Made by a program: the position numbers and the translations under genes
Notes under the pieces: model-generated
Seen by the model: only the letters and a program-made list of their open reading frames with translations
Databases searched by the model: none
What the model was told of the DNA's origin: nothing
Assembly: GCF_900103165.1 (NCBI RefSeq)
Contig: NZ_FNKY01000001.1
Coordinates: forward strand, 2,480,001 to 2,544,000
Direction: 5' to 3'
From: Nitrosospira multiformis
GTDB lineage: Bacteria; Pseudomonadota; Gammaproteobacteria; Burkholderiales; Nitrosomonadaceae
Length of the DNA stretch: 64,000 nucleotides
Shown here: positions 15,697 through 64,000 of the stretch, in pieces
How positions within the stretch are numbered: position 1 is the stretch's first letter
How the letters are laid out: the number at the start of each line of letters is the position of its first letter

Positions 15697-16037
15697 GGCT
15701 CGAGCTCTTCGCCCTCGACATGATCGGTGCCCGTCAGGCCGCGTGAAGCCAGCAGCACCACCAGAAACAGTGCTGTGGTGGCGAAGCCGATCACAATCGC
15801 CGTCAGAACCAGCGCCTGCGGCACGGGATCATCGTAAAGGGATGGATCGGCTTGCCTGAGGATATCGATGATGGGAACGAGCCCCACGGTCAGCCGCCCC
15901 ATCCCGAAAATGAACAGGTTCACCGCGTATGAAAGCAAGGTGAGGCCCATGATGACCTGAAAGGTACGCGGACGCAGCAGCAGCCACACGCCCGATCCGG
16001 TCAATACGCCGATTGCCAGGGCATAGACGATTTCCAT
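15693..16037 (-). CDS. mrpC: Mrp-type Na+/H+ antiporter subunit C
   Basis: A 114-residue, three-helix protein homologous to NuoK. Seen: IGVLTGSGVWLLLRPRTFQVIMGLTLLSYAVNLFIFGMG, then DPVPQALVLTAIVIGFATTALFLVV, the hallmark of MrpC. The ATG at 16037 is preceded by AAGGAGAATTG and shares its first base with the stop codon of the mrpAB gene (TGATG), so translation is coupled. A longer open frame upstream has no family resemblance and was rejected. Confidence 0.94.
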   Translation of the reverse strand: MEIVYALAIGVLTGSGVWLLLRPRTFQVIMGLTLLSYAVNLFIFGMGRLTVGLVPIIDILRQADPSLYDDPVPQALVLTAIVIGFATTALFLVVLLASRGLTGTDHVEGEELEP

Positions 16038-19024
16038 CAATTCTCCTTGGCGGCGTATGCCGAAGTGCCGGCCGGGGTCTGTAGGGCCTCTGGAGCTGGC
16101 GCCGTTGCCGGTCTGGCTCCGGACTCCACGTATGCGGTGCCGTGCTTGCGATGTCCGCGCCGCGATTGGTGCGCCAGCGCCACCAGGATCAGCACCGTGG
16201 CGCCAATCACCAGCAGAAATACACCGATATCGAATAGCAGCACGGTGGAAAGATGCAGCTCGCCGATTACCGGCAAGGCCGCATGCCATGTCAGGGCTGA
16301 GAGGAACGGACGCGCTGCCAGCCATGCCGCGAAGCCCGCTCCCGAGGCGCACAACAGGCCCAGCGCGATCCAGTATTGCGGAAAAATCCGGGTACGCGAT
16401 TCCGCCCAGGCGGTACCTCCCACCAGATATTGCAGGATAACCGCCGTCGCCACGATCAGTCCGGCCACAAACCCGCCCCCAGGTTCATTATGCCCGCGCA
16501 GAAGGAAAAAAACCGCCACCATGCCTGCAACCGGCAACAGCAACTGCACGATCACCCCCGGTAGCCGCATCGGTCCCGCTGGCAGCAATGTATGCGGGTC
16601 CGGCGGCAATCCGCTGCTTTGCACATCCTGCTCCTGCTGCTGGATCGGCAATCCCACGCTTTCGGGCGCAGGACGGAACCGCCGCAGCAGCGCGAATACC
16701 GTCAGCGCCACGATTCCCAGCACCGTGATCTCACCCAGCGTATCGAAACCCCGAAAATCCACCAGGATCACATTGATGACATTGGCGCCCCCGGCCAGTG
16801 GCAGGGAATTTTCGATAAAAAACGGCGAAATGCCTTCCCCGGCCCGCCGTGTCAATACCGCATAGCTCAATGCGGCCAGTCCGGTACCAGCAATAATCGC
16901 CAGCACCAGGTCCCGTAGCCGCCGAGTTCGGGCCCGCAGGCGCACCCGGAGCGGAACCCGTTTATCATCCACCGATTTATAACGCGGGGGAAGCCAGCGC
17001 AAGCCCAGCAGGAGCAGGACAAGTGTCACCACCTCCACGATAAGCTGGGTTAGCGCTAGATCTGGCGCGGAAAACCAGACGAAGGTCATGCAGGTGGCCA
17101 GCCCGGCCGCACCCGCCAGGCTGAGTGCCGCAAGGCGATGGTACTTGGCCTGGGTGGCGGCACCGATCGCGCAGGCGGCACCAGCGAGCCACATCAGCGC
17201 GAAAGCGGGTTCAACCGGCGCCACAGCCATATTGCCCGCTGGCAACCCCCCATTTGACAAAGGGATCAGCGCGCATGCAAATGCCGCACAGATCAGCAGC
17301 AGCAATTGCACTTGCAGCCGGTCTGTCGACAGCCACCGCGTCAGCCCATCTGCCAATGAATCCAGCTTTGTAAGAAGATATTCAAAAATAAGCTTGCCGT
17401 CCAGGTGAAAGCGGTCGATCAGCGGCACCACTGCGGTGCCATGATGATATTTTCCAAGCATCCGGTACAGGATGACGCCCCCGGCCATTGCCGCCAGGCT
17501 CATGAGCAACGGCAGGTTCCAGCCATGCCAAACCGCCAGGCTGTGGAAAGGCATGTCTGGCCCCAGCACGGATCGCGCCGCCATATCCAGGTATGGTCCA
17601 ATCGTTTTCGCGGGGATCATGCCGACCACAAGGCAGGTCAATACCAGCAACGCACTGGGAAGCAGCATCCAGAGCGGCGGCTCGTGCGCTTTCCTTGGCA
17701 AATCCGTGGCGGGCGGCCCAAAAAAAACCTGCAGTATAAAACGCAATGAATAAGCAACGCTGAGTACTCCCCAGATCACGGCCATTGCCGGCATGCCGAT
17801 GCGTGTGATCGCATTGCCGCTGATGAATATCGTTTCGGTGAAAAACATTTCCTTCGAGATGAAACCATTGAGCAAGGGTACGCCCGCCATCGCCGCGGCT
17901 CCCACCGTGGCGAGCGTGGCGGTAAGAGGCATTGCGCGATACAAGCCGCTCAGCCGCGACAGGTCGCGCGTGCCGGTCTCATGATCGACCATGCCGGCGG
18001 CCATGAACAGCGATGCCTTGAATGTGGCATGGTTCATGATATGAAAAATGGCCGCGATCAATGCGAGCGAACTGTTAAGTCCCAGCAGCAGCGTAATCAA
18101 CCCAAGATGGCTGATGGTCGAATAGGCCAGGACGCCCTTCATGTCACGTTGAAAAATTGCCATGTATGCGCCCAGCCCGAGCGAGCAAAGGCCCGCGCTG
18201 CCAATGATCCAGAACCACTCATCGGTGCCTGCCAGCGCGGGCCAGAGCCGCACCAGCAGAAACACGCCTGCTTTGACCATCGTCGCGGAATGCAGATAAA
18301 CGGATACAGGCGTGGGCGCCGCCATCGCATGCGGCAGCCAGAAATGAAACGGAAACTGGGCACTCTTGGTCAGCGCGCCCAGTGCCACCAGGATCAGCGC
18401 CGGCAGATACCATGAATGTGCCCGAATCAGATCGCCTGAAGCCAGTACCACGTCCAGATCGTAACTGCCTGTGATGCGCCCCAATATCAGCACCCCCGCA
18501 AGCAGGCACAACCCGCCGGCTGCCGTCACGGTCAGCGCCATGCGGGCCCCGCGGCGCGCGTCGGAACGATGATACCAGTATGCAATAAGCATGAATGATG
18601 TCAGGCTGGTCAACTCCCAGAACACCACCAGCTGAATCAGGTTGCCCGACAGCACCACTCCGAGCATGGCTCCCATGAAAGCCAGGAAGAACGAAAAAAA
18701 ACGCGGCACCGGATCCTGCGCGGACATGTAATAGCGCGCATACAGCACCACCAGCGCGCCCATCACGGTCACCAGCATGGTAAACAACCATGCAAAACCA
18801 TCCATGCGAAAGGTGAAATCCAGACCTAGCCCGGGTGCCCACTGCAGCGTCTCCCGCACCACCTCCCCTTCGGCGACTTGCGGGTAGAATTGCAATGTCA
18901 GGGTGACGCACGCAACCGCGATCGCGCCCGCAAGCCAGGCTTCGGCATTGCGGGCGTGGGAGGGCACAAGCGCGGCGCAGAGACTGCCCACGAATGGCAG
19001 GATAACAATCCAGGCTAGCGACAT
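16037..19024 (-). CDS. mrpAB: Mrp-type Na+/H+ antiporter subunit A fused to subunit B
   Basis: A ~995-residue polytopic protein. Residues ~1-790 are MrpA: LVVFWELTSLTSFMLIAYWYH, FHFWLPHAMAAPTPVSVYLHSATMVKAGVFLL (NuoL-like channel with the conserved Lys), HIMNHATFKASLFMAAG, LLNGFISKEMFF, and the C-terminal NuoJ-like part FVWFSAPDLALTQLIVEVV and VDFRGFDTLGEITVLG. After a short linker (PPDPHTLLPAGPMRLPGVIVQ) comes a full MrpB domain with FFLLRGHNEPGGGFVAGLI and DIGVFLLVIGA. Fused A-B subunits mark the group 2 (PhaAB-type) Mrp systems. The start at 19024 fits the family; an upstream ATG at 19072 has no better site. It leads the operon mrpAB-C-D-E-F-G. Confidence 0.95.
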   Translation of the reverse strand: MSLAWIVILPFVGSLCAALVPSHARNAEAWLAGAIAVACVTLTLQFYPQVAEGEVVRETLQWAPGLGLDFTFRMDGFAWLFTMLVTVMGALVVLYARYYMSAQDPVPRFFSFFLAFMGAMLGVVLSGNLIQLVVFWELTSLTSFMLIAYWYHRSDARRGARMALTVTAAGGLCLLAGVLILGRITGSYDLDVVLASGDLIRAHSWYLPALILVALGALTKSAQFPFHFWLPHAMAAPTPVSVYLHSATMVKAGVFLLVRLWPALAGTDEWFWIIGSAGLCSLGLGAYMAIFQRDMKGVLAYSTISHLGLITLLLGLNSSLALIAAIFHIMNHATFKASLFMAAGMVDHETGTRDLSRLSGLYRAMPLTATLATVGAAAMAGVPLLNGFISKEMFFTETIFISGNAITRIGMPAMAVIWGVLSVAYSLRFILQVFFGPPATDLPRKAHEPPLWMLLPSALLVLTCLVVGMIPAKTIGPYLDMAARSVLGPDMPFHSLAVWHGWNLPLLMSLAAMAGGVILYRMLGKYHHGTAVVPLIDRFHLDGKLIFEYLLTKLDSLADGLTRWLSTDRLQVQLLLLICAAFACALIPLSNGGLPAGNMAVAPVEPAFALMWLAGAACAIGAATQAKYHRLAALSLAGAAGLATCMTFVWFSAPDLALTQLIVEVVTLVLLLLGLRWLPPRYKSVDDKRVPLRVRLRARTRRLRDLVLAIIAGTGLAALSYAVLTRRAGEGISPFFIENSLPLAGGANVINVILVDFRGFDTLGEITVLGIVALTVFALLRRFRPAPESVGLPIQQQEQDVQSSGLPPDPHTLLPAGPMRLPGVIVQLLLPVAGMVAVFFLLRGHNEPGGGFVAGLIVATAVILQYLVGGTAWAESRTRIFPQYWIALGLLCASGAGFAAWLAARPFLSALTWHAALPVIGELHLSTVLLFDIGVFLLVIGATVLILVALAHQSRRGHRKHGTAYVESGARPATAPAPEALQTPAGTSAYAAKEN

Positions 19025-53757: not shown

Positions 53758-54393
53758 CTAAGTCGATTCCATCGATTCCATGGTAGCCGCTGATACAGGT
53801 ACTTCTGTCTGCAAGGGTGACCACTCCGTGCAACGCAGAACGTCCTCGGCGGCAAGCCGGGCGATGTAGGCTGCCTTGCTGTTTTGGGTGACCATGGCAG
53901 TTATAATTGCGCCCTCGATGATCAGGCCGAGTTTCTGGATGGCAATATCGGGATTACTGGCACCGCTTTCCACAACCAGTGTCCCGAGCCGGCCAATTAT
54001 CTGGTCGCGGTATGCGCCTGCCATATCCCTTACCCAGCCGCTCCCCTTCTCATGTTCCGCCACGGCATTAACGAATATGCAACCAAAAAAATCTTCTTTC
54101 TCGAACCATTTTTGGAGCAGATCGAACAGGGCGAGGATGCGGTTCTGGGGGGAACATTTCAGAGCTGGCAGATCCAGGTCGAACCAGTGAAACCACATGT
54201 TTGCTTCCGTATCGAGCACCGCCTTGAGCAGGTTTTCCTTGGAGCCGTAATGCGTATAGAGGCTTTGACGGGCCACGCCTGCTTCCTCAAGAATCCGTGT
54301 AATGCCGGTCGCATGTATTCCCGCCTGGCAGAACAGGCGGCGCGCGGCCAAAAGCAATTTTTCCTCCGTCGATTTAAGGGTCTTTTTCTTCAT
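53758..54393 (-). CDS. TetR-family regulator (YxaF/LmrA-like C-terminal domain)
   Basis: A 211-residue regulator. N-terminal helix-turn-helix: LLLAARRLFCQAGIHATGITRILEEAGVARQSLYTHYGSKENLLKAVL. The C-terminal domain has FFGCIFVNAVAEHEKGSG, a hallmark of the YxaF/LmrA-type TetR C-terminal domain, with Cys residues that could sense electrophiles. The start at 54393 follows GGAGGAATAGG. A copy of TAGACCGATCAGTCTA lies upstream of the OsmC gene (55238-55253) and another upstream of the PD40 gene (58291-58306); this regulator is the natural candidate to bind them. The truncated oxidoreductase gene ends one base before this start codon. Confidence 0.9.
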   Translation of the reverse strand: MKKKTLKSTEEKLLLAARRLFCQAGIHATGITRILEEAGVARQSLYTHYGSKENLLKAVLDTEANMWFHWFDLDLPALKCSPQNRILALFDLLQKWFEKEDFFGCIFVNAVAEHEKGSGWVRDMAGAYRDQIIGRLGTLVVESGASNPDIAIQKLGLIIEGAIITAMVTQNSKAAYIARLAAEDVLRCTEWSPLQTEVPVSAATMESMEST

Positions 54394-54394
54394 C

Positions 54395-54601
54395 CTATTC
54401 CTCCACAGCCTGCATTGATTGATGTGGACTTGCCCATCCGGAAGCGCCCGAGGTGGCCAATTGTTTCCTGATTTTTCCCACCGCGGCTGTTTTCTCCAAT
54501 ACCAGCGGCTCAAGACCAATTCTTTTCAGCTCATACGCCGCCGACAATCCCGCTGGGCCCGCGCCGATCACTGCGACATCATGTACACCGGTCATATCCA
54601 T
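54395..54601 (-). pseudogene. N-terminal fragment of a FAD/NAD(P)-binding oxidoreductase
   Basis: A 68-residue frame starting VHDVAVIGAGPAGLSAAYELKRIGLEPLVLEKTAAVG, the dinucleotide-binding G-x-G-x-x-G fold of flavin monooxygenases or thioredoxin reductases. A normal enzyme has at least 300 residues; here the frame ends shortly after the first helix (SPHQSMQAVEE, then stop) and no other part of the enzyme follows. It is a truncation, probably a deletion remnant between the OsmC and TetR genes. Confidence 0.75.
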
Positions 54602-54616
54602 TCTCCACGGTGATCA

Positions 54617-55162
54617 TCAAAGCTCAGCTGCCAATTCTGTCTGCTTGCAATTGATCTCGACGTCGAGCGGAACCGGGCGGATGATGGTGTCCGGAATGGG
54701 CGCGGTCTTCAGCAGCTTGTCCAGAATTTCCTTCACCTTGTCGGGAGCGGAATCGGTCCGGATGTCCACTTCCACCCCGATGCTCTCAAATCCTGGATTG
54801 GCGGCTTCAAGGCCATAGGCGGCACGGAAATTTACCCGGCCGGAAACATCGAGCCGCAGCGATTTTACCGTGATGCCGGCAGCCGACAGCCCACCGATAT
54901 AGGTGGCGGTAAGGCAATGTCCGACTGCGGTGAGCAGCATGTCCTCCGGTGTTATGCCGACTCCGCTACCACCGTAGCGCTCCGGTTCATCGCCGGTGAC
55001 TTCCTGGCCGTCCGTAACACGTGAGACGGTGCGGTAGCCGTTGTTCCAGACAATGGTCGACTGAAATCGGGGCTTGGAAAGAGGCCCATCTGCATCCGTC
55101 TCGATAAGATCCTGCGTTGTCCGCAATCTATCGAGGTCGATTCCATTCACGTATTTCATCAT
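54617..55162 (-). CDS. OsmC/Ohr-family protein
   Basis: A 181-residue protein of the OsmC superfamily. The family core reads GITPEDMLLTAVGHCLTATYIGGLSAAGI with the peroxidatic Cys83, after a stretch of beta strands (RFQSTIVWNNGYRTVSRV). A second Cys (174, INCKQTE) is close to the end, not in the usual partner position, so thiol peroxidase activity is uncertain. The ATG at 55162 follows GGAGATGAACGATA. The leader resembles that of the PD40 gene at 58234, including the first codons (MKYVNG against MKCVNG) and the operator TAGACCGATCAGTCTA. Confidence 0.9.
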   Translation of the reverse strand: MMKYVNGIDLDRLRTTQDLIETDADGPLSKPRFQSTIVWNNGYRTVSRVTDGQEVTGDEPERYGGSGVGITPEDMLLTAVGHCLTATYIGGLSAAGITVKSLRLDVSGRVNFRAAYGLEAANPGFESIGVEVDIRTDSAPDKVKEILDKLLKTAPIPDTIIRPVPLDVEINCKQTELAAEL

Positions 55163-55529
55163 TATCGTTCATCTCCTCTCATCATCGGAGTACCTATGCC
55201 ACGCTTGATTTTCATGCATTCAGAGTAGCATCAAAGATAGACCGATCAGTCTAGTTATCATTCTATACCGTGAACAAAGACATTACAAGAAGTACGGATA
55301 TGAATTTTTTGAAGAGTGAATTCCCCTGCCAGGAGAAAGCATCAATTGATGCAGGCTTGATCGTTCAGGGATGCGAACGAATACCTTTTTGTGTGTAGTG
55401 GTAAGAAATCGCTGGACAGATTATTTACGGGATCAAGAGCCGAAGGCCGTGACCAGCGACCGTTCCTAGACAATGAGATAACCGCTCGCCTGAAACCAGC
55501 TATCCGACCTTGGGAGAGCATCTATACAG
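55163..55529. other. Duplicated leader/operator region, copy 1
   Basis: Positions ~55150-55350 align with ~58215-58395 (roughly 70-75 percent), including the ribosome binding site, the operator at 55238-55253 and a divergent short start atgaattttttgaagagtgaattc (55301). The rest to 55529 holds nothing recognised. Confidence 0.65.
55238..55253. promoter_or_regulatory. Candidate TetR operator, copy 1
   Basis: TAGACCGATCAGTCTA: the arms TAGAC and GTCTA are exact complements around CGATCA. Located 76 bases before the OsmC start codon and repeated identically at 58291-58306. Palindromes with TAGAC arms are typical of TetR/NemR-type regulators; the TetR gene lies next door. Confidence 0.65.
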
Positions 55530-57167
55530 TTACCTTTCAACTATACGCTTAGCCTCGACTATCCCGGGGCGCGGGCTGTCAGAGTACTCGGTCAATTTAA
55601 GCAGCTGCTCCGAGTAGTGAACTGCTATCTGCTCATTGCCCACTCGTTTTGCATTTTGAGCCGCTCCCGCGATCGCGGCATATCGGTTGGGCTGTTGTTC
55701 AAGAACTTTTTCGAACTCAGCGAAAGCATCAGCCGGTTTACCGTCGCGTTCAAGTGTCGTCGCCAGCATCTCTCGCGCCGGAACGACTGGCCCAGGAGTG
55801 ACGACATTCTTTGCGCTCGCATCTTCACGTTCTGCCGCTCGGCGCAGTATTGTGATACCCTCATCGTGTTTGCCTTCAGCAAAGGCTGCCAGTCCGCGTA
55901 CTACCTCGACCTGGATGTCGATCTGATCCGCCCAGTAGTTCAATTTCATAGATGCCGCCGCATCACGAAGTTCAGCCAACCGCTTCGCCTCGAAGTTCGC
56001 CTTAGCCGGCTCTCCACTCATCGCTGAACCAATACCGCGGGCGAAAGCGTTGACCGCTTCAGCCTGTGGATACTTCCTCCATGGGTAGGTATCCCGGGCA
56101 TGTAATGGCAAATTCGCGGCCTCCTGCCAGGCTCCGCGTTCAAGTGCGATCCTTGCGGGGATGGCGGCGTACGGATACGCGACCCCAAGCATGTCGATTC
56201 CATATCTCGCTTGTTCTTGCTCCATGACCTTTCGCGCCGCAAGATCCTGACCTAACTGTAGATGGGCATATGCCATGTAGTCGGATGCATGATGCCCGTC
56301 GTGGGTAATCAAGTCATCAGCCGTCGCGGCCGCACGACGGTTTGTGTCAATCGACTCTTGCCAGAAGCCTGTGAGGGTGAAGATGTGCGATGGCATGTGC
56401 AAGGCGTGAGGCGCGTCCGGAGCGATTTTCGCGTACTTCCTTGCAGCGTCAATCCCACGCTTGGCCAACGGTGGATAGTCATAACTGTGAATCAGATAGT
56501 GTGCCACTCCAGGATGGTTGGGTTCTCGGGCAAAGATTGGCTCGAGTAGCAGGGCGGCGTGCAATTGGTTGCTATAGGTTTTGTCAGTAGGATTGAAATT
56601 CCTTGATAGAATGAGCGCATACAACACGGTTGCCTCACTGTCGTCGGGGTTCCGTTGCGCCAGCTGCGCCATCGCTTTTTCGAAGGCATCAGCCCTTTCT
56701 CGATAGTTCGCGTTGTTCAAGCCTTTAAAGAATATATCGAGTGCATCGACATAGTCACGTTCTCGCTGAGTCTTCAGCCCGGAATTACGTGCGGCATCGA
56801 GTAGTGTCGGCCCCTCAGTCATTGCTTTTTCTGACAAGGTGACTGGCCAGGCAAACGGGTTATCGAGAATCGCTAGAGCTTTTACCCAATGAGCCATGCC
56901 ACAAGTGGGGTCGGCCTTGAGTACGTCGTCAGCCGTTGCAATGGCACGCTGCCATTGAAAAGAGTGGTAGTACGCTATTGCCACATTAAATTTGGCTTGT
57001 GCCGTAGCGTTGCACTCCACTTTGAAGTGGACATCGCCAATCATGGGTTTATGTGAACCCCCGTCATCCGCTCTTGCGACTTGAGTCAATGCCAGTGCCA
57101 AGAGCGTTGATATTAATACCTTAGCGCCTTTCCTCATGAATTCATTCCAGGCTTCCTTGGGTGTCAT
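55530..57167 (-). CDS. Secreted TPR-repeat protein
   Basis: A 545-residue protein with a signal segment (LISTLLALALTQVARA, residues ~18-33). It then has helical TPR-like repeats across the whole length (QAKFNVAIAYYHSFQWQRAIATADDVLKADP, a TPR motif, then GVAHYLIHSYDYPPLAKRG and others). Two HxxxHxxx-type patterns occur (APHALHMPSHIFTLTG and DGHHASDYMAY). The C-terminal half is paralogous to the gene at the left end of the window. Its ATG at 57167 overlaps the stop of the PD40 gene (ATGA), so the two are coupled. TPR proteins of this sort serve as scaffolds or periplasmic chaperones; the actual role is unknown. Confidence 0.85.
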   Translation of the reverse strand: MTPKEAWNEFMRKGAKVLISTLLALALTQVARADDGGSHKPMIGDVHFKVECNATAQAKFNVAIAYYHSFQWQRAIATADDVLKADPTCGMAHWVKALAILDNPFAWPVTLSEKAMTEGPTLLDAARNSGLKTQRERDYVDALDIFFKGLNNANYRERADAFEKAMAQLAQRNPDDSEATVLYALILSRNFNPTDKTYSNQLHAALLLEPIFAREPNHPGVAHYLIHSYDYPPLAKRGIDAARKYAKIAPDAPHALHMPSHIFTLTGFWQESIDTNRRAAATADDLITHDGHHASDYMAYAHLQLGQDLAARKVMEQEQARYGIDMLGVAYPYAAIPARIALERGAWQEAANLPLHARDTYPWRKYPQAEAVNAFARGIGSAMSGEPAKANFEAKRLAELRDAAASMKLNYWADQIDIQVEVVRGLAAFAEGKHDEGITILRRAAEREDASAKNVVTPGPVVPAREMLATTLERDGKPADAFAEFEKVLEQQPNRYAAIAGAAQNAKRVGNEQIAVHYSEQLLKLTEYSDSPRPGIVEAKRIVER

Positions 57168-58234
57168 TTTCTGGTTTTGGCAAGTAAATTAGGTGGTGGC
57201 CCGATCGGCTCGAATTTTTTCAATAATGGAATATCCTCTTTGCTTATCCATCGGATATCCGTATCAAATGTGTTTTGGGGTTCCCAACTGCCGGTAAATT
57301 TCTTACCATCAGGCGTGAAAGTCCAGCACATTTCTTCACCAGGGGTATTGATGACATCGCCAAGATTGATCGGTTTCTGCCATTCTCCATTGGCATCCTG
57401 ATGTGAAATCCACATATCGTGCCCACCCCGGGAATCCGGATCAATCCGTGTACTAGTGATGACCATACTCTTGCCATCTTTTGATACCCCGGTCCAGTGC
57501 ATATGGTCACGCTGTGGAGAATTGATTTTCGCTCCCAGGCTCACCGGTTTCTGCCACACCCCATCTTTTTTTTCGACTTTCCAGATATCACTCTCTTGCG
57601 TAACTCCCGGTTGGCTGTAATTGAAATAAATGAGGCTGTCGGAAATAATAATCGGACAATGCTCCTCACCGGTTGGGGTATTGATACTGGGAAGTTCCGG
57701 AACATCGTTCCAGTTTCTGGCCGACTGCCATATACCATTTACCTTCTGAACGACATAAAGATCACCTGACAACAGGTTACCCGGTTCATATCTCGTAAAA
57801 TAAATGACATTGCCATCGTCCGAGAAGCTGGGTTCCAGGTCCCAGGCCGCTGTATTGATATTTGGCCCTACGGTCGGATCGATGTCAGGACCGAGATGAA
57901 TGGGTTCCTGCCATACACCATCCACATTGCGAGCCATCCATATGTCGAAATTGTAAGGGGTGCCGGGTGATTCGATACTGCCCGCGCGAGTTGAAACAAA
58001 AATAGCTGTTTTGCCGTCTGCACTGTAAGTAATTTCTATTTCCGAACCTGATGAGTTGATGGGTGCTCCCATATCTTTTGATGCAGCAGGCGGCTCAGTT
58101 GCTCCACCGCCTTCGGTTCCGTGCATACCCGGCATGGCATAAGACAGATTGCTTGCCAGCATTAATACCGGTAGCGTGGAACAAAGCTTCATAACAAAGC
58201 TGTCTTTCGTTCCATTCACGCATTTCATCGTCAT
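57164..58234 (-). CDS. Exported PD40/TolB-like beta-propeller protein
   Basis: A 356-residue periplasmic protein. The N-terminus reads MTMKCVNGTKD, then a signal-like segment (LCSTLPVLMLASNLSYA). The mature part has a Gly-rich start and at least five PD40 repeats of the type YSADGKTAIFVSTRAG, SFSDDGNVIYFTRY, WTGVSKDGKSMVITSTR and WTFTPDGKKFTGSW, forming a beta propeller as in TolB. It ends with PPNLLAKTRK. Such proteins bind partner proteins or carbohydrates in the periplasm; no substrate is known. It is translated together with the TPR gene downstream (ATGA overlap) and lies behind a copy of the TetR operator at 58291-58306. Confidence 0.88.
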   Translation of the reverse strand: MTMKCVNGTKDSFVMKLCSTLPVLMLASNLSYAMPGMHGTEGGGATEPPAASKDMGAPINSSGSEIEITYSADGKTAIFVSTRAGSIESPGTPYNFDIWMARNVDGVWQEPIHLGPDIDPTVGPNINTAAWDLEPSFSDDGNVIYFTRYEPGNLLSGDLYVVQKVNGIWQSARNWNDVPELPSINTPTGEEHCPIIISDSLIYFNYSQPGVTQESDIWKVEKKDGVWQKPVSLGAKINSPQRDHMHWTGVSKDGKSMVITSTRIDPDSRGGHDMWISHQDANGEWQKPINLGDVINTPGEEMCWTFTPDGKKFTGSWEPQNTFDTDIRWISKEDIPLLKKFEPIGPPPNLLAKTRK

Positions 58235-58290
58235 CGTTCATCTCCTTATCATCGCTGAGAAACTGATGCCATTTTCGAGGAGCATCAAAA

Positions 58291-58306
58291 TAGACCGATC
58301 AGTCTA
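58291..58306. promoter_or_regulatory. Candidate TetR operator, copy 2
   Basis: TAGACCGATCAGTCTA, identical to copy 1 at 55238-55253. It lies 57 bases upstream of the PD40 gene start codon, with the same surroundings (agcatcaaa before, ttcattctatac after), within a duplicated ~180-base leader. Confidence 0.65.
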
Positions 58307-58490
58307 TTTTCATTCTATACCCTAAAAAAAGACATTACAAGAGGAGTGGAGATGAATTTTTTGAAGAGTGAATTCCTTTCCCAAGAGAAAGCTGTCAAAT
58401 AAAGTAAGAGACTCTGCGGGAAAATTAGAGGCCTTGCTTCACAAGCGAGGGGGAAAGAAATCTCTTCTTATCCTAGTGTTTGTTTCAGTT

Positions 58491-59312
58491 TCAGCTACTC
58501 ATACCTGTTACAACCGCTATGGCTTTGATTCCCATACCCGTCGCCACGGCCCCCGCAAGAATGGCGAAGCTTTTTTGCAATGCCGGACCCGTAAAGTGGT
58601 GGGCAAATCTGCTGGCCATCAGCATTGCTGTCACCGCACCTGCCACGAAGGGCAGCGCAATGGGCCAGTTCATGCTTCCAGCCACCATTGCCGAGAATGC
58701 ACCGGCCCCGGACACCATTGCAATGACCGCGAGCGAGGTGGGCACGATGGTCCTCATGTGAAGAAGGGTGGCTTTTTGGAGTGCGGGCACGATGATGAAG
58801 CCGCCTCCCACCCCGAGAAGGCCAGAGAGAAAACCGGCTGCAATTCCAGATAATGCGAGCGATCTCGCGCAACGGGCGTCCCAGATAAGTCGTCTGCTGA
58901 AATCGTCGAGCTGGCACGGCGTAGCCAGCAAGGACGGTGTGGCTTTCGCAGAATGGCTTCCCGAACGCCTGAACATTCTGATGGCGATATAGCCGAGCAC
59001 TGCCGCAAACAGGAGGCTCAAGGCCGCATCGGGTATTTTCCGGGCGATGTATATCCCCACTGGCGACGCCAGTGCGCCGGTGAGCGCGATGAAGCCAGCC
59101 GCCCGATACCTTACCCTTCCCTGTTTCAATGCCAGGAGCGCGCCGATGGCAGCCGTAATGCTAACCGCAAACAGGGCAATGGGCGCAGCCTCCGCTACCA
59201 GTAATTGCAAACCAAAAACGAGTAGCGGAACGGCGATGATGGCGCCCCCCGCCCCGGTCAGCCCGAGTATTACGCCGACCAGGGCACCAAAAAGCGCGGC
59301 CATCATTGACAT
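58491..59312 (-). CDS. tauE: Sulfite exporter of the TauE/SafE family
   Basis: A 273-residue inner-membrane protein with about eight helices in two homologous halves. Each half carries a TauE signature: the first is GALVGVILGLTGAGGAIIAVPLLVF, the second is SGIAAGFLSGLLGVGGGFIIVPALQK. TauE-type proteins export sulfite, sulfoacetate or related anions. The start at 59312 was chosen at the family N-terminus (MSMMAALFG); a longer upstream frame overlaps the preceding gene. It is the last gene of the sulfur operon, 11 bases after the SQOR stop, and would remove sulfite produced by the persulfide dioxygenase. Confidence 0.85.
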   Translation of the reverse strand: MSMMAALFGALVGVILGLTGAGGAIIAVPLLVFGLQLLVAEAAPIALFAVSITAAIGALLALKQGRVRYRAAGFIALTGALASPVGIYIARKIPDAALSLLFAAVLGYIAIRMFRRSGSHSAKATPSLLATPCQLDDFSRRLIWDARCARSLALSGIAAGFLSGLLGVGGGFIIVPALQKATLLHMRTIVPTSLAVIAMVSGAGAFSAMVAGSMNWPIALPFVAGAVTAMLMASRFAHHFTGPALQKSFAILAGAVATGMGIKAIAVVTGMSS

Positions 59313-59323
59313 GAGCACGACAC

Positions 59324-60610
59324 TTAGGTGGGGCTGCCCGGGCGGGCAAGCCATTCGCGCCCTTTCAGGAAACCGTGCCAGTAAAACCAGGGAAGGAATT
59401 TTGCCTTGAGCAGCCAAGCCAGAAAGCGCGGAACCGTTGGGTCGAGACGAAAGGTTGGAAGCAGCTTGCCGCCATACCCGAACTCGGCAAGAATGACCTT
59501 GCCCTTCTCCACCGTGAGCGGACAGGAGCCATATCCATCGTAGAGCGTTGCCATTTCCCTACTCTCCCTGGCAGCCAGGAGGTTTTCCGCAACCACGACG
59601 ATCTGCTTCCTGACGGCAGCGGCGGTCTTCGCGTTAGGGGAGGAACACACGTCCCCGAGAGAGAAGATATTCGCGTAGCGGGTATGTCGCAGTGTCTTGT
59701 GATCGACCTCACACCATCCCGCGGCATCAGCCAGCGGGCTCTTGCGCACGAAATCCGGCGCGGCTTGGGGTGGCGAAACGTGCAACATATCGAAGGATTT
59801 TGCCACCCATTCGACGCTTCCATCCGGCTGGCGGATATCAAAGTAGGCGATCCTGTTTGGCCCATCCACCTTGACGAGATTGGAGCTGAACGCGAGATTT
59901 GCGTTATAGCGCTTTACATACTCCATCAACGGCGGAACAAAGGCTGCCACGCCGAACAGCACAGGCGCGGCGCTGTTGAACTCCACGCTGACTTTGTCGA
60001 GCAGCCCTTGCCGCAGCCAGTGGTCGCAGGACAGGTACATCGCCTTCTGCGGGGCGCCCGCACACTTGATCGGCATGGGCGGCTGGGTGAAAAGCGCCTT
60101 GCCGCCCTTGAGTTCCTTCACCAGAGACCAGGTATACGGCGCCAGATCGAAACGGTAATTGGAAGTGACGCCATGTTTCCCGAGCGTATCCTCCAGCCCC
60201 TCGATCTGCTCCCACGCAAGGCGCAGGCCTGGACACACCACCAGTTGCCTGTAGCCGATAGAACGGCCGTCCGCCAGATGAACAAGATTGGAGTTCGGAT
60301 CAAAAACGCTCGCGGCAGTCTGGATCCAGGTGGATCCTGAGGGAATGACGCTGGCCATGGGCTGCACGGTTTTTGAAATGTCATACGCGCCTCCTCCCAC
60401 GAGTGTCCAGGCTGGCTGATAATAGTGCCTGTCACTGGGCTCGACGATCGCTATACGCAGAGAAGGCTGACGTCGAAGCAGGCTGGCGGTGATGCCTATG
60501 CCTGCCGTGCCTCCTCCGATCACGACGATATCAAAGTCTTCGCCCCAGCTGCATGCGGCGTCGATCGGGGCTGTGGGTGTGTCGTTGTTCCAGGTACGCT
60601 CGTTCATCAT
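59324..60610 (-). CDS. sqr: Sulfide:quinone oxidoreductase (SQOR-like)
   Basis: A 428-residue flavoprotein. FAD motif: DIVVIGGGTAGIGITASLLRR near residue 28. The text follows the eukaryotic-type SQOR closely: KCAGAPQKAMYLS with catalytic Cys183, SFDMLHVSPPQAAPDFVRKSPLADAAGW, RHTRYANIFSLGDVCSSPNAKTAAA, DGYGSCPLTVEKGKVILAEFGY with the second catalytic Cys near 363, and an amphipathic C-terminus ending in WFYWHGFLKGREW. It would oxidise sulfide at the inner membrane, reduce ubiquinone and hand the sulfane sulfur to glutathione. AGGGGGACGAA precedes the ATG. It lies between the persulfide dioxygenase and TauE genes. Confidence 0.93.
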   Translation of the reverse strand: MMNERTWNNDTPTAPIDAACSWGEDFDIVVIGGGTAGIGITASLLRRQPSLRIAIVEPSDRHYYQPAWTLVGGGAYDISKTVQPMASVIPSGSTWIQTAASVFDPNSNLVHLADGRSIGYRQLVVCPGLRLAWEQIEGLEDTLGKHGVTSNYRFDLAPYTWSLVKELKGGKALFTQPPMPIKCAGAPQKAMYLSCDHWLRQGLLDKVSVEFNSAAPVLFGVAAFVPPLMEYVKRYNANLAFSSNLVKVDGPNRIAYFDIRQPDGSVEWVAKSFDMLHVSPPQAAPDFVRKSPLADAAGWCEVDHKTLRHTRYANIFSLGDVCSSPNAKTAAAVRKQIVVVAENLLAARESREMATLYDGYGSCPLTVEKGKVILAEFGYGGKLLPTFRLDPTVPRFLAWLLKAKFLPWFYWHGFLKGREWLARPGSPT

Positions 60611-60674
60611 TTCGTCCCCCTTCTTTCAATTGTTCTTGCTCCGCCCGGCCCCGCGCTCTTTGTTTTCCAGCGTT

Positions 60675-61535
60675 TTAGATCACGTTCAGTGGTATTTTCA
60701 GGTACGAAATCCCGTTATCTTCGGGAGGAGGCATTTGCCCCGCGCGCACATTTATCTGGACGGACGGAAGTAGGAGAGTGGGCAGGTCGAGCGTGGTATC
60801 CCGCGCTTGCCGCATGGCCACGTACTGGTCTTCGTCGATACCATCGTGCACATGGATGTTATGAACGCGCTGCTCAGCCACGGTAGTCTCCCACCGGATA
60901 GAGCGGCTTGCCGGAGCATAATCATGACAAACGAAGAGACGCGTTTCCGCTGGATAGGCAAGAAGCCTGCGTATCGACCGGAACAGACGCCGGGCATCCC
61001 CACCGGGAAAGTCAGCACGCGCAGTGCCAAGATCGGGCATGAAGAGTGTATCGCCCACAAAGATTGCATCGCCCATCTGATAGGACAGGTCCGCCGGGGT
61101 GTGGCCGGGCGTCAAGATCGCCGTTGCCGTCATCCTGCCGATACTGAATGTTTCACCGTCGGCCAGCAGATGATCGAAGTGACCGCCATCCGGCGTAAAG
61201 TCCGATCCCAGATTGAAAATCTTCTTGAAAGTCTCCTGCACGGCAGGAATCTCCTTCCCAATAGCCGTTCTGCCGCCCAGCTTGTTCTTGAGATAGTCCG
61301 CGGAGGTCAGATGATCGGCGTGCGCATGCGTTTCGAGGATCCATTCCGTCTTCAGTCGTTTTTCGCTGATGAAGGCGATTATCCTGTCTGCTGAGGCCAT
61401 GCGTATCCTGCCTGATTTCGGGTCGTAATCCAGCAGGGGATCGATAATCGCGCAACTGCCAGCAGGCTCGTCATAAACGACGTAGCTCAGTGTCCATGTG
61501 GCCGGGTCGAAGAATGCCTCAATATTGGGTTTCAT
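60675..61535 (-). CDS. Persulfide dioxygenase, ETHE1/Blh-like
   Basis: A 286-residue metallo-beta-lactamase-fold enzyme that oxidises glutathione persulfide to sulfite. Metal motif ETHAHADHLTSADYLKN (His70, His72, Asp74, His75), then LTPGHTPADLSYQMGDAIFVGDTLFMPDLGTARADFPGGDA and a closing HDYAPASRSIRWETTV. The GTARADFPGGDA block is typical of the Blh/ETHE1 group. The start at 61535 was chosen at the family N-terminus (MKPNIEAFFDP); an in-frame ATG far upstream runs through the neighbouring FmdB gene. It is the middle gene of the sulfur operon and should act directly after SQOR. Confidence 0.92.
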   Translation of the reverse strand: MKPNIEAFFDPATWTLSYVVYDEPAGSCAIIDPLLDYDPKSGRIRMASADRIIAFISEKRLKTEWILETHAHADHLTSADYLKNKLGGRTAIGKEIPAVQETFKKIFNLGSDFTPDGGHFDHLLADGETFSIGRMTATAILTPGHTPADLSYQMGDAIFVGDTLFMPDLGTARADFPGGDARRLFRSIRRLLAYPAETRLFVCHDYAPASRSIRWETTVAEQRVHNIHVHDGIDEDQYVAMRQARDTTLDLPTLLLPSVQINVRAGQMPPPEDNGISYLKIPLNVI

Positions 61536-61563
61536 CTGCAGTCTCTTTCTGGCCAAGCGCGAG

Positions 61564-61806
61564 TTAAGCGTGCCCACATCCACACCCTGGCGCGTGCACG
61601 TGTTTTGCCAGTCCAGTTTTTGGCTGAAGTGAACGCATTGCTTGATCCCGGCCTCGCGCCATTTCCCCATGCATGGCAGGAACAGAAAGAATCAGTTTTT
61701 CTGTTGAGCTTCCGCATGCCAAACAATCCGGGTTAGGCGCGTGGATTGAATGGCGTACTTCAAATTGAAGTTTGCACTCTGTACACAAGTAGTCATAAGT
61801 TGGCAT
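61564..61806 (-). CDS. FmdB-family zinc-ribbon protein
   Basis: An 80-residue protein with the FmdB-type zinc ribbon: MPTYDYLCTECKLQFEVRHS, then DCLACG completing two CxxC pairs. The C-terminus is Cys/His-rich (HVHAPGCGCGHA). FmdB-type proteins are named after a putative formamidase regulator; the true role is unknown and could be metal delivery or protein binding. The ATG at 61806 follows tagggattctaa. It lies between the carbonic-anhydrase-like and persulfide-dioxygenase genes, 28 bases before the latter, so it belongs to the operon. Confidence 0.85.
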   Translation of the reverse strand: MPTYDYLCTECKLQFEVRHSIHAPNPDCLACGSSTEKLILSVPAMHGEMARGRDQAMRSLQPKTGLAKHVHAPGCGCGHA

Positions 61807-61892
61807 TTAGAATCCCTATATCCATTAAAACACGCTAAGACGTGACCACCCGGTATGACAAGTGATCACGTTTCCGGTTTTTTCTCTTGAGC

Positions 61893-62546
61893 TTAGCTCC
61901 AACGAGGTGGTTGTTTACCTTTGACACCGAACGGGACCGAGGTAACGTCAGTTCTTGCACGTTTCTCAGGATCAAGTGTGGGAGCCCTAAGGCGGCGCGT
62001 CTCCACTTCCCAGATCCAGCCACTGATTACAGTATCTTTAGGTATGAGAGGGTGATTCTTGAAAGCTTCGACTGTCTTCATGCAGGTTACGTCCACATCA
62101 TCCATCATGCCGATCCACTTGGCGAACGCACCTTTTTCCAGCTTCAACTCGGGTAAAGTGGAATCCAATGTAATATTGTCAGGATCAATGCCCTTGTCAC
62201 GAAAGTGTTTCTCCAAATCTTGCGCATTTACAGACAACATGCCGCACTGCGTATGTTGAACAATGACGATTTCTTTCGTGCCGAAGAAATTACACGTGAG
62301 CATGGCGGAGCGTATCGCATCGTCGGTCACAATCCCGCCCGCGTTTCGGAAACAATGTGCATCGCCATGTCCTGCCGGTGTGTCCACGTGAATGCCAAGG
62401 GCTTCATCTACTGGCAGGCGCTCATCCATGCAGGCGAGCACCCACAAATTGAGGTTGTTCGCCCCTTTAGGCCCATAGCGTCGACGTGTTGCCCAGAAAT
62501 CGTATGCCTCGACACGTGTGCTCAGCTCCTCTTGGAGAGTTTTCAA
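61893..62546 (-). CDS. Beta-carbonic-anhydrase-like enzyme, possible COS/CS2 hydrolase
   Basis: A 217-residue protein of the beta-carbonic-anhydrase family. The zinc ligands and catalytic dyad are all present: ACMDERL (Cys39, Asp41, Arg43), then QHTQCGML (His98, Cys101). The central GHGDAHCFRNAGGIVTDDAIRSAMLTCNFFGTKEIVIV fits the clade that includes mycobacterial Rv1284 and the carbonyl-sulfide hydrolase of Thiobacillus thioparus. Only a handful of active-site-entrance residues separate CO2 hydrases from COS/CS2 hydrolases, and I cannot decide by eye. Its position at the head of an SQOR-persulfide-dioxygenase operon favours COS or CS2. It starts with TTG after AGAGGAGACTCAAAA. Confidence 0.85.
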   Translation of the reverse strand: MKTLQEELSTRVEAYDFWATRRRYGPKGANNLNLWVLACMDERLPVDEALGIHVDTPAGHGDAHCFRNAGGIVTDDAIRSAMLTCNFFGTKEIVIVQHTQCGMLSVNAQDLEKHFRDKGIDPDNITLDSTLPELKLEKGAFAKWIGMMDDVDVTCMKTVEAFKNHPLIPKDTVISGWIWEVETRRLRAPTLDPEKRARTDVTSVPFGVKGKQPPRWS

Positions 62547-62677
62547 TTTTGAGTCTCCTCTTTAATTGGTTGTAATTTAAAAACTACTCCCTAAAGCGAA
62601 CTACTTTTTAAGTAGAACCTAAAGGGGTTTCATAAACGGATATTTAACTCGCACATCCGGGATGCAATAACATTGCA

Positions 62678-62693
62678 TGCAAATCCCATGCCA
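62678..62693 (-). promoter_or_regulatory. Sigma-54 (-24/-12) promoter of the sulfur operon
   Basis: On the minus strand: TGGCATGGGATTTGCA. The consensus is TGGCACG-N4-TTGCW. All fixed positions match except C to T at position 6; GG and GC are correctly spaced. Transcription would start near 62667, giving a leader of about 120 bases before the TTG start at 62546. Confidence 0.78.
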
Positions 62694-62756
62694 TGAAGAA
62701 CAAAAATAAAACTCCCACATATTCAATTGCTTAACTTTTCATTCTTGTCATTTTAG

Positions 62757-62791
62757 TGAAGCCGTGCTTCAATCAGTGAAGATCAACTTCA
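62757..62791. promoter_or_regulatory. Two inverted repeats TGAAG-N5-CTTCA (candidate enhancer sites)
   Basis: TGAAGCCGTGCTTCA at 62757-62771 and TGAAGATCAACTTCA at 62777-62791. Arms are identical, centres are 20 bases apart (two helix turns). They lie about 97 and 117 bases upstream of the predicted start point, a normal distance for sigma-54 activator sites, and 18 bases or more before the activator's own ATG. Confidence 0.75.
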
Positions 62792-62808
62792 TACATAGCC
62801 CACAATCC

Positions 62809-64000
62809 ATGAACAACAATCCTCTTTCTGAGTTAACACCGGATTTTTTTCTGCAAACCTTTATTCTTGAGCTTATGCATGCCAGCGAACAACAGGGACA
62901 AAAACATTGCGAACAGTTAATTGAGCATATAGCCAAAACTGCAGGCTGTTTTTTTGAAGAAACTTATCGAGAAAATACTCATAAAAATGAACAGCTCGAT
63001 AATGAAAGCTATACCGAACTCATACTCGGCATCAAAAACAATATCGGTGGTAAATTTTCACTGGTTTCCAGTACCCAGGACTGTATTACAGTTACCAATT
63101 CCCGCTGTCCTTTTGGCGAACAAGTCACCAACTTTCCTGAGTTATGCAGGATGACTTCCAGCGTATTTGGGGGTATCGCAGCCAGAAACTTTGGCTATGC
63201 CAAAGTTGACATCAAAAAAAGCATAGCTCGCAAGGATGGCAAATGTGATGTATGTATTTACACCAATCCACAGGCAGCAAAAGGACAGCGTGGAATGGAA
63301 TATACCGATACAACGCCAGTCAAGGAAATTAACGATACCAAGGAATTGCAGTGTCGAATTGAAACAAGCATGCAAAGGCTTTGGCAGAAACAGAATAGGA
63401 AAATATCAGAAAAACATCAGCCCCCTGCAATCATCGCAAAATCACCAATGATGCAGAAAATACTGGAATTAATCGAGGTTATTGCACCCACTTTGGCAAC
63501 GGTTCTGATTCAGGGTCAAACAGGTGCAGGTAAAGAGCTGATAGCACGTGCGATACATGCGATGAGCGATCGCTCCCATAAACCATTCATCGCCATTAAT
63601 TGCGGCGCGATTCCAGAAAGCCTGATTGAAAGCAGCTTGTTTGGACATGAAAAAGGCGCTTTTACAGGAGCCATAGAAGTTCACGAAGGCTATTTCGAGC
63701 GGGCCGAAGGCGGTACCTTGTTTCTGGATGAAGTCGATTCATTGTCACCAGCAGCACAAACCAGATTACTTCGTGTGATCCAGGAAGGAGAATTGGAGAG
63801 AGTTGGCGGTAAACAAACATTAGCGGTTGATGTAAGGATCATCTCAGCAACAAATCAAAACCTGGAAGATCTTGTTAAACAGGATCGGTTCCGCAATGAC
63901 CTGTACTACCGCATCAACGTAGTTCGTTTAAGCATTCCTCCCTTGGCCGAACGGCCAGAAGATTTGCCTTATCTCGTGCAATTGATCATTCAGCGATTGA
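62809..64000 (+). CDS. Sigma-54-dependent transcriptional activator with a Cys-rich sensor domain (3' end outside window)
   Basis: The first ~397 residues are present. Residues ~75-150 form a sensor domain with NSRCPFGE (Cys100), LCRMTSSVFGGIAARNFGYAKV (Cys113) and CDVC (Cys146, Cys149), which resembles the methanogen output domain (MetOD1) seen in some regulators; the Cys residues could bind metal or a sulfur species. Residues ~215-397 are the AAA+ domain: GQTGAGKE (Walker A, 236-243), GAFTGA (283-288) that contacts sigma-54, GTLFLDE (Walker B, 302-308) and the R-finger region RFRNDLYYRI. The C-terminal DNA-binding part lies beyond the window. It diverges from the sulfur operon and probably activates it through the paired inverted repeats. 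Confidence 0.93.
   Translation, partial: MNNNPLSELTPDFFLQTFILELMHASEQQGQKHCEQLIEHIAKTAGCFFEETYRENTHKNEQLDNESYTELILGIKNNIGGKFSLVSSTQDCITVTNSRCPFGEQVTNFPELCRMTSSVFGGIAARNFGYAKVDIKKSIARKDGKCDVCIYTNPQAAKGQRGMEYTDTTPVKEINDTKELQCRIETSMQRLWQKQNRKISEKHQPPAIIAKSPMMQKILELIEVIAPTLATVLIQGQTGAGKELIARAIHAMSDRSHKPFIAINCGAIPESLIESSLFGHEKGAFTGAIEVHEGYFERAEGGTLFLDEVDSLSPAAQTRLLRVIQEGELERVGGKQTLAVDVRIISATNQNLEDLVKQDRFRNDLYYRINVVRLSIPPLAERPEDLPYLVQLIIQRL

Follow-up and report, generated by a model that had tools for sequence, protein, structure and literature searches.

A predicted sigma-54-dependent operon for CS2 hydrolysis and sulfide disposal in the ammonia oxidiser Nitrosospira multiformis

We found that an operon of Nitrosospira multiformis probably serves inducible hydrolysis of CS2 (and COS) together with sulfide disposal in this ammonia oxidiser. 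The operon lies in a window of 64,000 nucleotides (positions 2,480,001 to 2,544,000 of contig NZ_FNKY01000001.1), and its gene content and enzyme families can be read directly from the DNA (Table 1). Five leftward genes encode, in order, a CS2-hydrolase-like beta-CA, an FmdB zinc ribbon, a persulfide dioxygenase (PDO), an SQOR-type sulfide:quinone oxidoreductase (SQR) and TauE, and a sigma-54 activator gene is divergent from them. This arrangement, described in the initial annotation, was confirmed in place and strand. Pfam search supported it with Pro_CA, Zn_ribbon_8, Lactamase_B (PDO), Pyr_redox_2 (SQR) and TauE in the operon, and with Sigma54_activat and an N-terminal MetOD1 domain in the activator. 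The activator gene is cut by the window end, and its true end is G000:C1:2544368. RpoN and three AMO-family genes are present in the host genome.

Table 1. Coordinates of the operon genes, the activator and the control elements in the window.
Feature	Position	Strand	Evidence or remark
CS2-hydrolase-like clade-D beta-CA, 217 aa, TTG start	61893..62546	-	C39, D41, R43, H98, C101, F87-F88, insertion TPAGHG
FmdB-family zinc ribbon, 80 aa, His/Cys-rich C-terminal tail	61564..61806	-	Pfam Zn_ribbon_8
ETHE1/Blh-type persulfide dioxygenase, 286 aa	60675..61535	-	4ysk 390 bits; ETHE1 4chl 62 bits
SQOR-type sulfide:quinone oxidoreductase, 428 aa	59324..60610	-	human SQOR 341 bits
TauE/SafE sulfite exporter, 273 aa from ATG	58491..59312	-	Pfam TauE 149 bits
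Sigma-54 activator, 519 aa; sensor MetOD1 / V4R-Bet3-like, AAA+, C-terminal region	62809..64000, runs 368 bp beyond window	+	Pfam, AF2 + Foldseek
Upstream enhancer dyad TGAAG-N5-CTTCA	62777..62791	.	98 bp upstream of -24 element
Downstream enhancer dyad	62757..62771	.	20 bp from other dyad; 78 bp upstream of -24 element
Sigma-54 -24/-12 promoter TGGCATGGGATTTGCA	62678..62693	-	132-147 bp upstream of CS2-hydrolase-like gene
Inverted repeat ATGCAAT-N3-ATTGCAT	62662..62678	-	just downstream of -12 box

From the head gene to TauE (counted from ATG 59312), the intergenic gaps are 86, 28, 64 and 11 bp. Across 58200-62900, terminator-like sites numbered 4 against 5.3 expected from shuffles, so there is no excess of internal terminators; sigma-70-like sites in the operon numbered 3 against 2.9 expected. 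One weak stem-loop was seen between the CS2-hydrolase-like gene and the FmdB gene. We infer that the five genes are co-transcribed. The locus might instead hold two independent units, a CS2-hydrolase module and a self-controlled sulfide module, that became adjacent by chance; however, the short gaps and the shuffle counts argue against this, and the sulfide module has no regulator gene here. The comparisons below use the best 80 of 114 matches (relatives, with closely related loci kept and not thinned) and 125 family genomes; these two sets overlap (G099 and L002, for example, share coordinates) and are not independent samples.

CS2 hydrolases are enzymes that hydrolyse CS2 and COS. The closest solved relative of the head enzyme was CS2 hydrolase, with 173 bits compared with 61 bits for COS hydrolase. 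In a tree holding one characterised CS2 hydrolase sequence, and 3vqj as a 68-residue stretch only, the head enzyme and CS2 hydrolase were placed together (support 100/99), and COS hydrolase fell outside; branches in this tree are long. The Cys/His/Cys zinc ligands, the Asp-Arg dyad and the Phe-Phe motif are all there, and C39, D41, R43, F87, F88, H98 and C101 were invariant in 26/26 aligned sequences. PDG was read in 12/26 relatives. The Phe-Phe motif is called characteristic of CS2 hydrolase in the available text of one report (PMC6382920). The top Foldseek matches were 3ten/3teo, the CS2 hydrolase of Acidianus A1-3 (44% identity), found with a low-confidence AF2 model (pLDDT 61, TM ~0.5). 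That protein is likewise a clade-D beta-CA with the same zinc ligands and an NFFGT stretch containing Phe-Phe; the host enzyme differs by additional 2-aa and 6-aa (TPAGHG) insertions, which we take to be features of the Acidithiobacillus thiooxidans S1p CS2 hydrolase, and in standing at the head of an operon that has FmdB and a sigma-54 activator.

The COS hydrolase of Thiobacillus thioparus THI115 (3vqj) is also a clade-D beta-CA and splits COS, but it has LL in place of the Phe-Phe of CS2 hydrolase. We rejected identity with COS hydrolase proper because this protein falls outside the head-enzyme group, and on sequence COS appears less likely than CS2 to be the main substrate. A COS-hydrolase homologue lay directly upstream on the same strand in 3/80 relatives (L069, L072 and L075; best 80 of 114), and the record of L072 gives Gammaproteobacteria. 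It is very improbable that the operon starts with a plain carbonic anhydrase whose task is to provide this autotroph with bicarbonate. The Pro_CA match would suit such a role, as would the sole NCBIfam match, a CA family scoring under its cut-off, and the 'carbonic anhydrase' annotation carried by plasmid-borne relatives. However, both sequence and tree are nearest to CS2 hydrolase, the promoter is of an inducible type and the surroundings are sulfur genes; moreover, CO2 hydration by CS2 hydrolases and COS hydrolase is negligible or none according to the accessible part of PMC8209446. Sequence, tree and gene context together led us to reject the carbonic anhydrase as the principal interpretation. 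The suggestion of the initial annotation that the CA-like enzyme is of a COS/CS2-splitting type agrees with its grouping with CS2 hydrolase and not with CO2-hydrating carbonic anhydrases.

The activities of the downstream enzymes are predicted from their families. The PDO has an MBL fold with HxHxDH and later His/Asp motifs and is near solved bacterial members, among which we take 4ysk to be a PDO; its score against NCBIfam Blh (389 bits) is under the cut-off of 625. The SQR is closest to human SQOR and retains both cysteine contexts (PIKCAGAPQK and GSCPL), which presumably hold the catalytic cysteines. For FmdB, zinc handling is possible.

The promoter architecture is evident in the DNA. TGAAGN5CTTCA occurs exactly twice in the 64 kb, both copies being the dyad pair, and eight times in the genome (once for a reversed control pattern), where only the copies of the pair are close together. 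The paired enhancer sites claimed earlier are therefore real, and the pair is conserved: it was kept in 27/30 relatives with a divergent activator (each dyad with at least 8/10 bases; best 80 of 114), and among loci with other activator types many had it in weaker form, at another place or not visibly at all. Upstream of the gene, a -24/-12 element with a score of 10/12 or more was found in 72/81 sequences (relatives being the best 80 of 114) and on the opposite strand in 3/81; the score was lower in the other 9/81. As a control, 60/2456 300-bp chunks reached at least 10/12, and these were cut from the same loci, so that some promoters may be among them. A stretch akin to the inverted repeat, TTATTGCAT, was seen in several relatives.

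Among the 125 family genomes, the composite promoter was present in 36, which are the 36 holding the close activator type, and in 0/89 others searched. All 38 sites were 14-18 bp from an activator gene, and the control pattern gave none. On this one-to-one tie, and on the 72/81 against the controls, we rejected a chance promoter. With the -24/-12 element, paired upstream sites and RpoN all found, the operon is predicted to be sigma-54-dependent, and control through the paired sites, as first proposed, is strongly supported by comparative sequence. A composite-pattern search for further regulon members in the host genome gave one site only, that of the operon.

The activator likely starts at ATG 62809, which is retained in close relatives; GTG 62764 was rejected, as it falls within a dyad. 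Three other matches to the activator in the genome cover the AAA region alone. The AF2 model of the sensor (pLDDT 78) gave a weak-to-moderate fold match to 7vqf (E 4e-3, TM ~0.56), and the sensor cysteines C100, C113 and C146 were invariant. The protein may thus have a Bet3/V4R-like small-molecule sensor joined to a sigma-54 AAA+ domain, as in the phenol-responsive activators MopR/DmpR; however, no PDB sequence matched a profile of the sensor at E<=1, and the neighbours of the host gene are sulfur genes.

FisR is a divergent sigma-54 activator that controls PDO-SQR-TauE in Acinetobacter baumannii and was first described in Cupriavidus pinatubonensis, as given in the available text of PMC7315123. 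That system shares with the host a divergent activator, a predicted sigma-54 promoter, and PDO, SQR and TauE in one operon, whereas CS2 hydrolase and FmdB are not listed in the same part of the source. The present activator could accordingly be a functional FisR sensing sulfide or persulfide, with the CS2-hydrolase-like enzyme as one more sulfide-related target, and the three invariant cysteines would fit. We consider this unlikely. An activator lay within 3 kb of 35/37 enzyme copies in the family, but SQR accompanied only 14/37 (SQR proximity being scored in enzyme-bearing genomes), and 44 of the 70/125 family genomes with SQR were without the CS2-hydrolase-like enzyme. Fisher's test in this family comparison gave a p-value of 5e-21, with phylogeny ignored. 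In addition, a FisR-like protein from C. metallidurans has PAS_4 as its sensor and aligns to the activator only from residue 197 on. We rejected FisR orthology because the sensor domain differs from that of this C. metallidurans protein.

The conserved unit consists of the activator, the CS2 hydrolase and FmdB. In the best 80 of 114 matches, the activator was near in 73/80 (with the threshold lowered for L021, L048 and L073, where the gene is split or cut) and FmdB was beside the enzyme gene in 75/80 (L066 being scored without FmdB by the distance rule, though a match exists there). On this comparison the sulfide module reads as an add-on to the unit. The initial annotation had advised looking for the same gene order in other genomes, and the fused order recurs in L029, L033, L038 and L049 (best 80 of 114), which argues against chance adjacency of two units. 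In L020 the PDO is in two frames, and in L026 it is on the other strand. In the sister genome G097, an SQR (87% identical) and TauE stand beside an ArsR-type regulator gene, with PDO divergent, and by context this resembles BigR/SqrR. The host window has no ArsR-type regulator, and the sigma-54 activator is in its place. The G097 layout suggests a regulator swap; it would also suit two independent units, as would the 23/37 family enzyme copies for which the flanking 5 kb showed no SQR, although some may have been missed at contig ends. Overall, we regard a chance neighbourhood as quite improbable.

The module is patchy, with 35/125 family genomes and 7/23 in its own genus, where the named relatives are Nitrosospira and Nitrosovibrio. 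Among the matches listed, it was also found in Thiobacillus, Thiocapsa, Sulfuricella, Thiohalobacter and an actinomycete. The first four live on reduced sulfur. Protection of AMO cannot be the reason in these sulfur oxidisers and the actinomycete. The occurrence in the four sulfur-oxidiser genera, and the apparently intact SQR and PDO of the host, would favour a mainly nutritional operon in which CS2, COS or sulfide is an auxiliary electron donor and SQR quinone reduction feeds respiration and reverse electron flow. We find this somewhat unlikely, since the operon genes would export sulfite rather than oxidise it, and the copies lacking a nearby SQR also speak against it.

CS2 hydrolysis with sulfide disposal would proceed as follows. 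CS2 or a CS2-derived compound would bind the Bet3/MopR-like sensor, and the activator on the two phased dyads would drive RpoN at the -24/-12 promoter. The head enzyme would hydrolyse CS2, with COS as intermediate, and release CO2 together with two H2S; FmdB would be an accessory, perhaps for zinc. SQR would then turn H2S into persulfide, PDO would oxidise persulfide to sulfite, and TauE would carry sulfite out of the cell. The route from CS2/COS through sulfide and persulfide to sulfite, as the initial annotation had it, fits the gene content. The main benefit is probably that AMO, a copper enzyme, and respiration are shielded against CS2 and sulfide, electrons to quinone being secondary. CS2 has long been recognised as an AMO inhibitor, and the title of Hyman 1990 reportedly names this effect in Nitrosomonas europaea.

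The activator occurred without the CS2-hydrolase-like enzyme in 7/40 activator genomes, and in 7/7 it was divergent from a DUF938-SDR-DUF1326-PpoB2 operon; therefore, the ligand may not be CS2 itself. We tentatively raise the possibility that ammonia oxidisers and methanotrophs have a regulon for CS2 stress that has not been described before. Its activator might sense CS2 or a CS2-derived copper-binder (e.g. dithiocarbamate), and the same paired-dyad promoter might drive the CS2 hydrolase and, in relatives, DUF938-SDR-DUF1326-PpoB2 (copper-chaperone family), protecting or re-metallating the copper monooxygenase. In some ammonia-oxidising bacteria (AOB) the sulfide module might have been captured into this regulon from ArsR-type control, so that H2S is destroyed at once.

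The initial claim that no described sulfur operon combines such parts with sigma-54 control cannot be kept in that form, as FisR control of PDO-SQR-TauE is already known from the available part of PMC7315123. Each component has known relatives; the unusual part is the CS2-hydrolase/FmdB head with its own non-FisR activator. In the literature searched, neither sigma-54 control of a CS2 hydrolase nor the presence of such an enzyme in AOB was the subject of a listed title, and we met no account of the combined operon or its switch, which is weak evidence of absence given partial coverage; nor did the search, mostly of titles and abstract starts, show which genes could make ammonia oxidisers resistant to CS2. 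The comparison suggests that the same sulfide-oxidation genes have come under three kinds of regulator, namely FisR, the ArsR type and the host activator. If our reading is true, Nitrosospira, Nitrosomonas and methanotrophs would possess an inducible CS2 hydrolase as a genetic basis for CS2 resistance that can be tested by deletion, the operon would yield a CS2-responsive promoter, and these organisms would be candidate sinks for CS2 and COS.

We compared the predicted product of the first gene of the leftward operon with solved proteins. The top match was the Acidianus CS2 hydrolase 3ten/3teo (173 bits, E 5e-50), and the COS hydrolase 3vqj gave 61 bits. A 24-row tree grouped the window enzyme with its relatives and 3ten (100/99) and placed 3vqj outside this group with a Thiobacillus paralogue; given its long branches and the partial PDB sequences used, it supports the grouping but leaves the distances unfixed. 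Residues C39, D41, R43, H98, C101 and F87-F88 were invariant in 26/26 aligned relatives, picked from the best 80 of 114 matches to the enzyme. The relevant passages of PMC6382920 describe the Phe-Phe motif as characteristic of CS2 hydrolase. Compared with the archaeal enzyme, the window enzyme carries a 2-residue and a 6-residue insertion, the latter TPAGHG. The A. thiooxidans S1p enzyme (Smeulders 2013) reportedly has PD and TPAGGG insertions relative to the archaeal one, and its C-tail is reported to be longer. At the first place 12 of the 26 aligned relatives have PDG (PKG in the window), and at the second 21 of 26 have T/SPxGGG. If the S1p insertions are as reported, the window enzyme would be of the S1p type. 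CO2 hydration is described as negligible or absent for CS2 hydrolases and COS hydrolase in the part of PMC8209446 that concerns them, and CS2 hydrolases have been described in Acidianus and Acidithiobacillus, as cited there and in PMC7308577.

Genes of the operon and its divergent regulator, in window positions
Feature	Position	Strand	Basis
CS2-hydrolase-like beta-CA	61893-62546	minus	sequence similarity, Pfam
FmdB zinc ribbon	61564-61806	minus	Pfam
Persulfide dioxygenase (PDO)	60675-61535	minus	similarity to solved proteins, Pfam
SQOR-type sulfide:quinone oxidoreductase (SQR)	59324-60610	minus	similarity to solved proteins, Pfam
TauE	58491-59312	minus	Pfam
Divergent activator	from ATG 62809, 519 aa; stop 368 bp past window end	plus	

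In two Thiobacillus MAGs (L069, L075) and a MAG labelled Gammaproteobacteria (L072), the gene immediately upstream of the CS2-hydrolase gene, and co-oriented with it, encodes a COS-hydrolase homologue. The tree took in the L069 copy alone of these three, and the L075 open frame is short. Such a homologue would be a natural partner for the predicted CS2-COS-H2S route. At 15145-16653, L069 carries another member of the activator family in addition to its first.

The genome (3.5 Mb; window at G000:C1:2480001-2544000) contains one rpoN-type gene and three AMO-family genes (PF02461), and 0/14 control genomes had an AMO-family gene. From its named same-genus relatives, we infer an ammonia-oxidising host of the Nitrosospira group. 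These relatives, matched by coordinates, are Nitrosospira multiformis Nl7 (L002 = G099), Nitrosospira briensis Nsp8 (L029 = G095) and the Nitrosovibrio strains L033 = G114, L038 = G110 and L049 = G112. Window positions 53758-58234 hold TetR, a truncated flavoprotein frame, OsmC-like, TPR and PD40 beta-propeller genes. A comparable group was seen, partly by eye, near the CS2-hydrolase module in the ammonia-oxidising bacteria L002 and L013, and a PD40-like gene near that of L055.

We investigated the gene neighbourhood in the best 80 of 114 matches to the enzyme, which include Nitrosomonas, Nitrosospira, Methylobacter, Methylomonas, Sulfuricella, Thiobacillus, Thiocapsa and Thiohalobacter. FmdB adjoins the enzyme in 75/80 loci and the activator lies within 4.5 kb in 73/80; for the 56 loci flanked by 3 kb or more on each side, the counts are 54/56 and 55/56. 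All six window parts occur together in 6/80 loci (L020, L026, L029, L033, L038, L049), the last four in the window's gene order. Among 125 genomes of the family, the enzyme was found in 35, the activator in 40 and SQR in 70. Enzyme and activator share 33 genomes, seven have the activator without the enzyme, and two assemblies (G006, 190 contigs; G106, 260 contigs) have the enzyme without the activator. The activator lies within 3 kb of 35/37 family enzyme copies, and SQR within 5 kb of 14/37. When 398 genomes were drawn evenly from the phylum, with one of the searches scoring no more than three first-look candidates in each genome, the enzyme and the activator were each found in the same two genomes, both of this family.

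A plasmid of Methylobacter sp. YRD-M1 (L082) has genes in a row for the enzyme, FmdB, a ZIP zinc transporter, the activator and a cupin. This copy is bounded by IS3 and IS1 transposases, which may offer a route for transfer. One family genome has a broken third module copy (L110, G034:C1:2277000-2290000), in which transposase-like genes, identified by eye, separate what is left of the activator from what is left of the enzyme; FmdB, SQR, TauE and a split PDO are still there.

The sister genome G097 has neither the enzyme nor the activator. Its SQR, 87% identical to that of the window, stands with TauE next to one gene of the ArsR family and one encoding DUF6691, and its PDO is divergent. These gene arrangements suggest a regulator swap, in which the sulfide module probably came under the sigma-54 promoter.

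The window has two perfect TGAAG-N5-CTTCA dyads, 20 bp apart, 98 and 78 bp upstream of a -24/-12 element. This element scored at least 10/12 in 72/81 upstream regions, compared with 3/81 on the other strand, 60/2456 control chunks and 26/1620 shuffles. Both dyads (each at least 8/10 bases) were found at about -98 and -78 in 27/30 loci with a divergent activator, the exceptions being L055 (one dyad), L058 and L073; the remaining loci had similar dyads at other distances (e.g., near -137 or -158) or none seen. The full composite, made up of a dyad, 5 bp, a second half-site, 70-78 bp and the -24/-12 element, was present in 36/125 family genomes, exactly the 36 with the close activator type. It was found neither in the four genomes with a distant type (48-50% identity) nor in the 85 others, and its reversed control gave 0 matches. 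An activator gene begins or ends within 14-18 bp of each of the 38 composite sites. The window's own genome has a single site. Such conservation is in part due to shared descent. But the Methylobacter locus L019 has the same architecture twice, before the CS2-hydrolase gene and, at position 9188, before a DUF938 operon. Just beyond the -12 box of the window, an inverted repeat (ATGCAAT-N3-ATTGCAT, 62662-62678) is partly kept in relatives and is possibly a repressor or start-site element.

The seven activator-only genomes (L103-L109) have the activator divergent from DUF938, SDR, DUF1326 and PpoB2-family genes, assigned by Pfam in L103 and by eye from translations in the other six. A -24/-12 element precedes this operon in 7/7, and both dyads (at least 8/10) in 6/7, L104 having one. 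The operon is likely to be a second target of the activator family, judging from these promoters.

The initial annotation held that no described sulfur operon combines the six parts with sigma-54 control. This is too wide, because A. baumannii has FisR-PDO-SQR-TauE under sigma-54, as described in the part of PMC7315123 that deals with this system; PDO-SQR-TauE is arranged there as in the window. However, the sensor differs from that of the FisR-like protein of C. metallidurans (L086), which has a PAS_4 domain and aligns to the activator from residue 197 onward only; the window sensor is MetOD1 (Pfam), and a FisR-type activator was rejected on this ground. Three L086 cysteines have the spacing reported for FisR C53/C64/C71. 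With the predicted sensor model (pLDDT 78, pTM 0.76), Foldseek gave TRAPP Bet3 proteins as best matches (E 1.8e-5) and H-NOX, MopR and DmpR as weaker ones (E about 3e-3 to 7e-3). Sensor residues C100, C113 and C146 were invariant in 22/22 aligned sequences, and we take the MopR zinc site as their possible analogue. A small-molecule sensor is the simplest reading. As the activator tracks the CS2 hydrolase and not SQR, CS2 or one of its derivatives is a more plausible candidate ligand than sulfide.

The literature matches listed, with most subscription papers outside their scope, describe no sigma-54-controlled CS2 hydrolase, and no CS2 hydrolase in ammonia-oxidising bacteria or methanotrophs. 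CS2 is said to inhibit AMO (Hyman 1990). AMO is a copper enzyme, and CS2 forms with amines dithiocarbamates, which bind copper; a link of the DUF938-SDR-DUF1326-PpoB2 operon to AMO copper or dithiocarbamates is speculative. For the operon of the window, strong genomic evidence points to known enzymes that are combined in a new way with an activator from an uncharacterised family.
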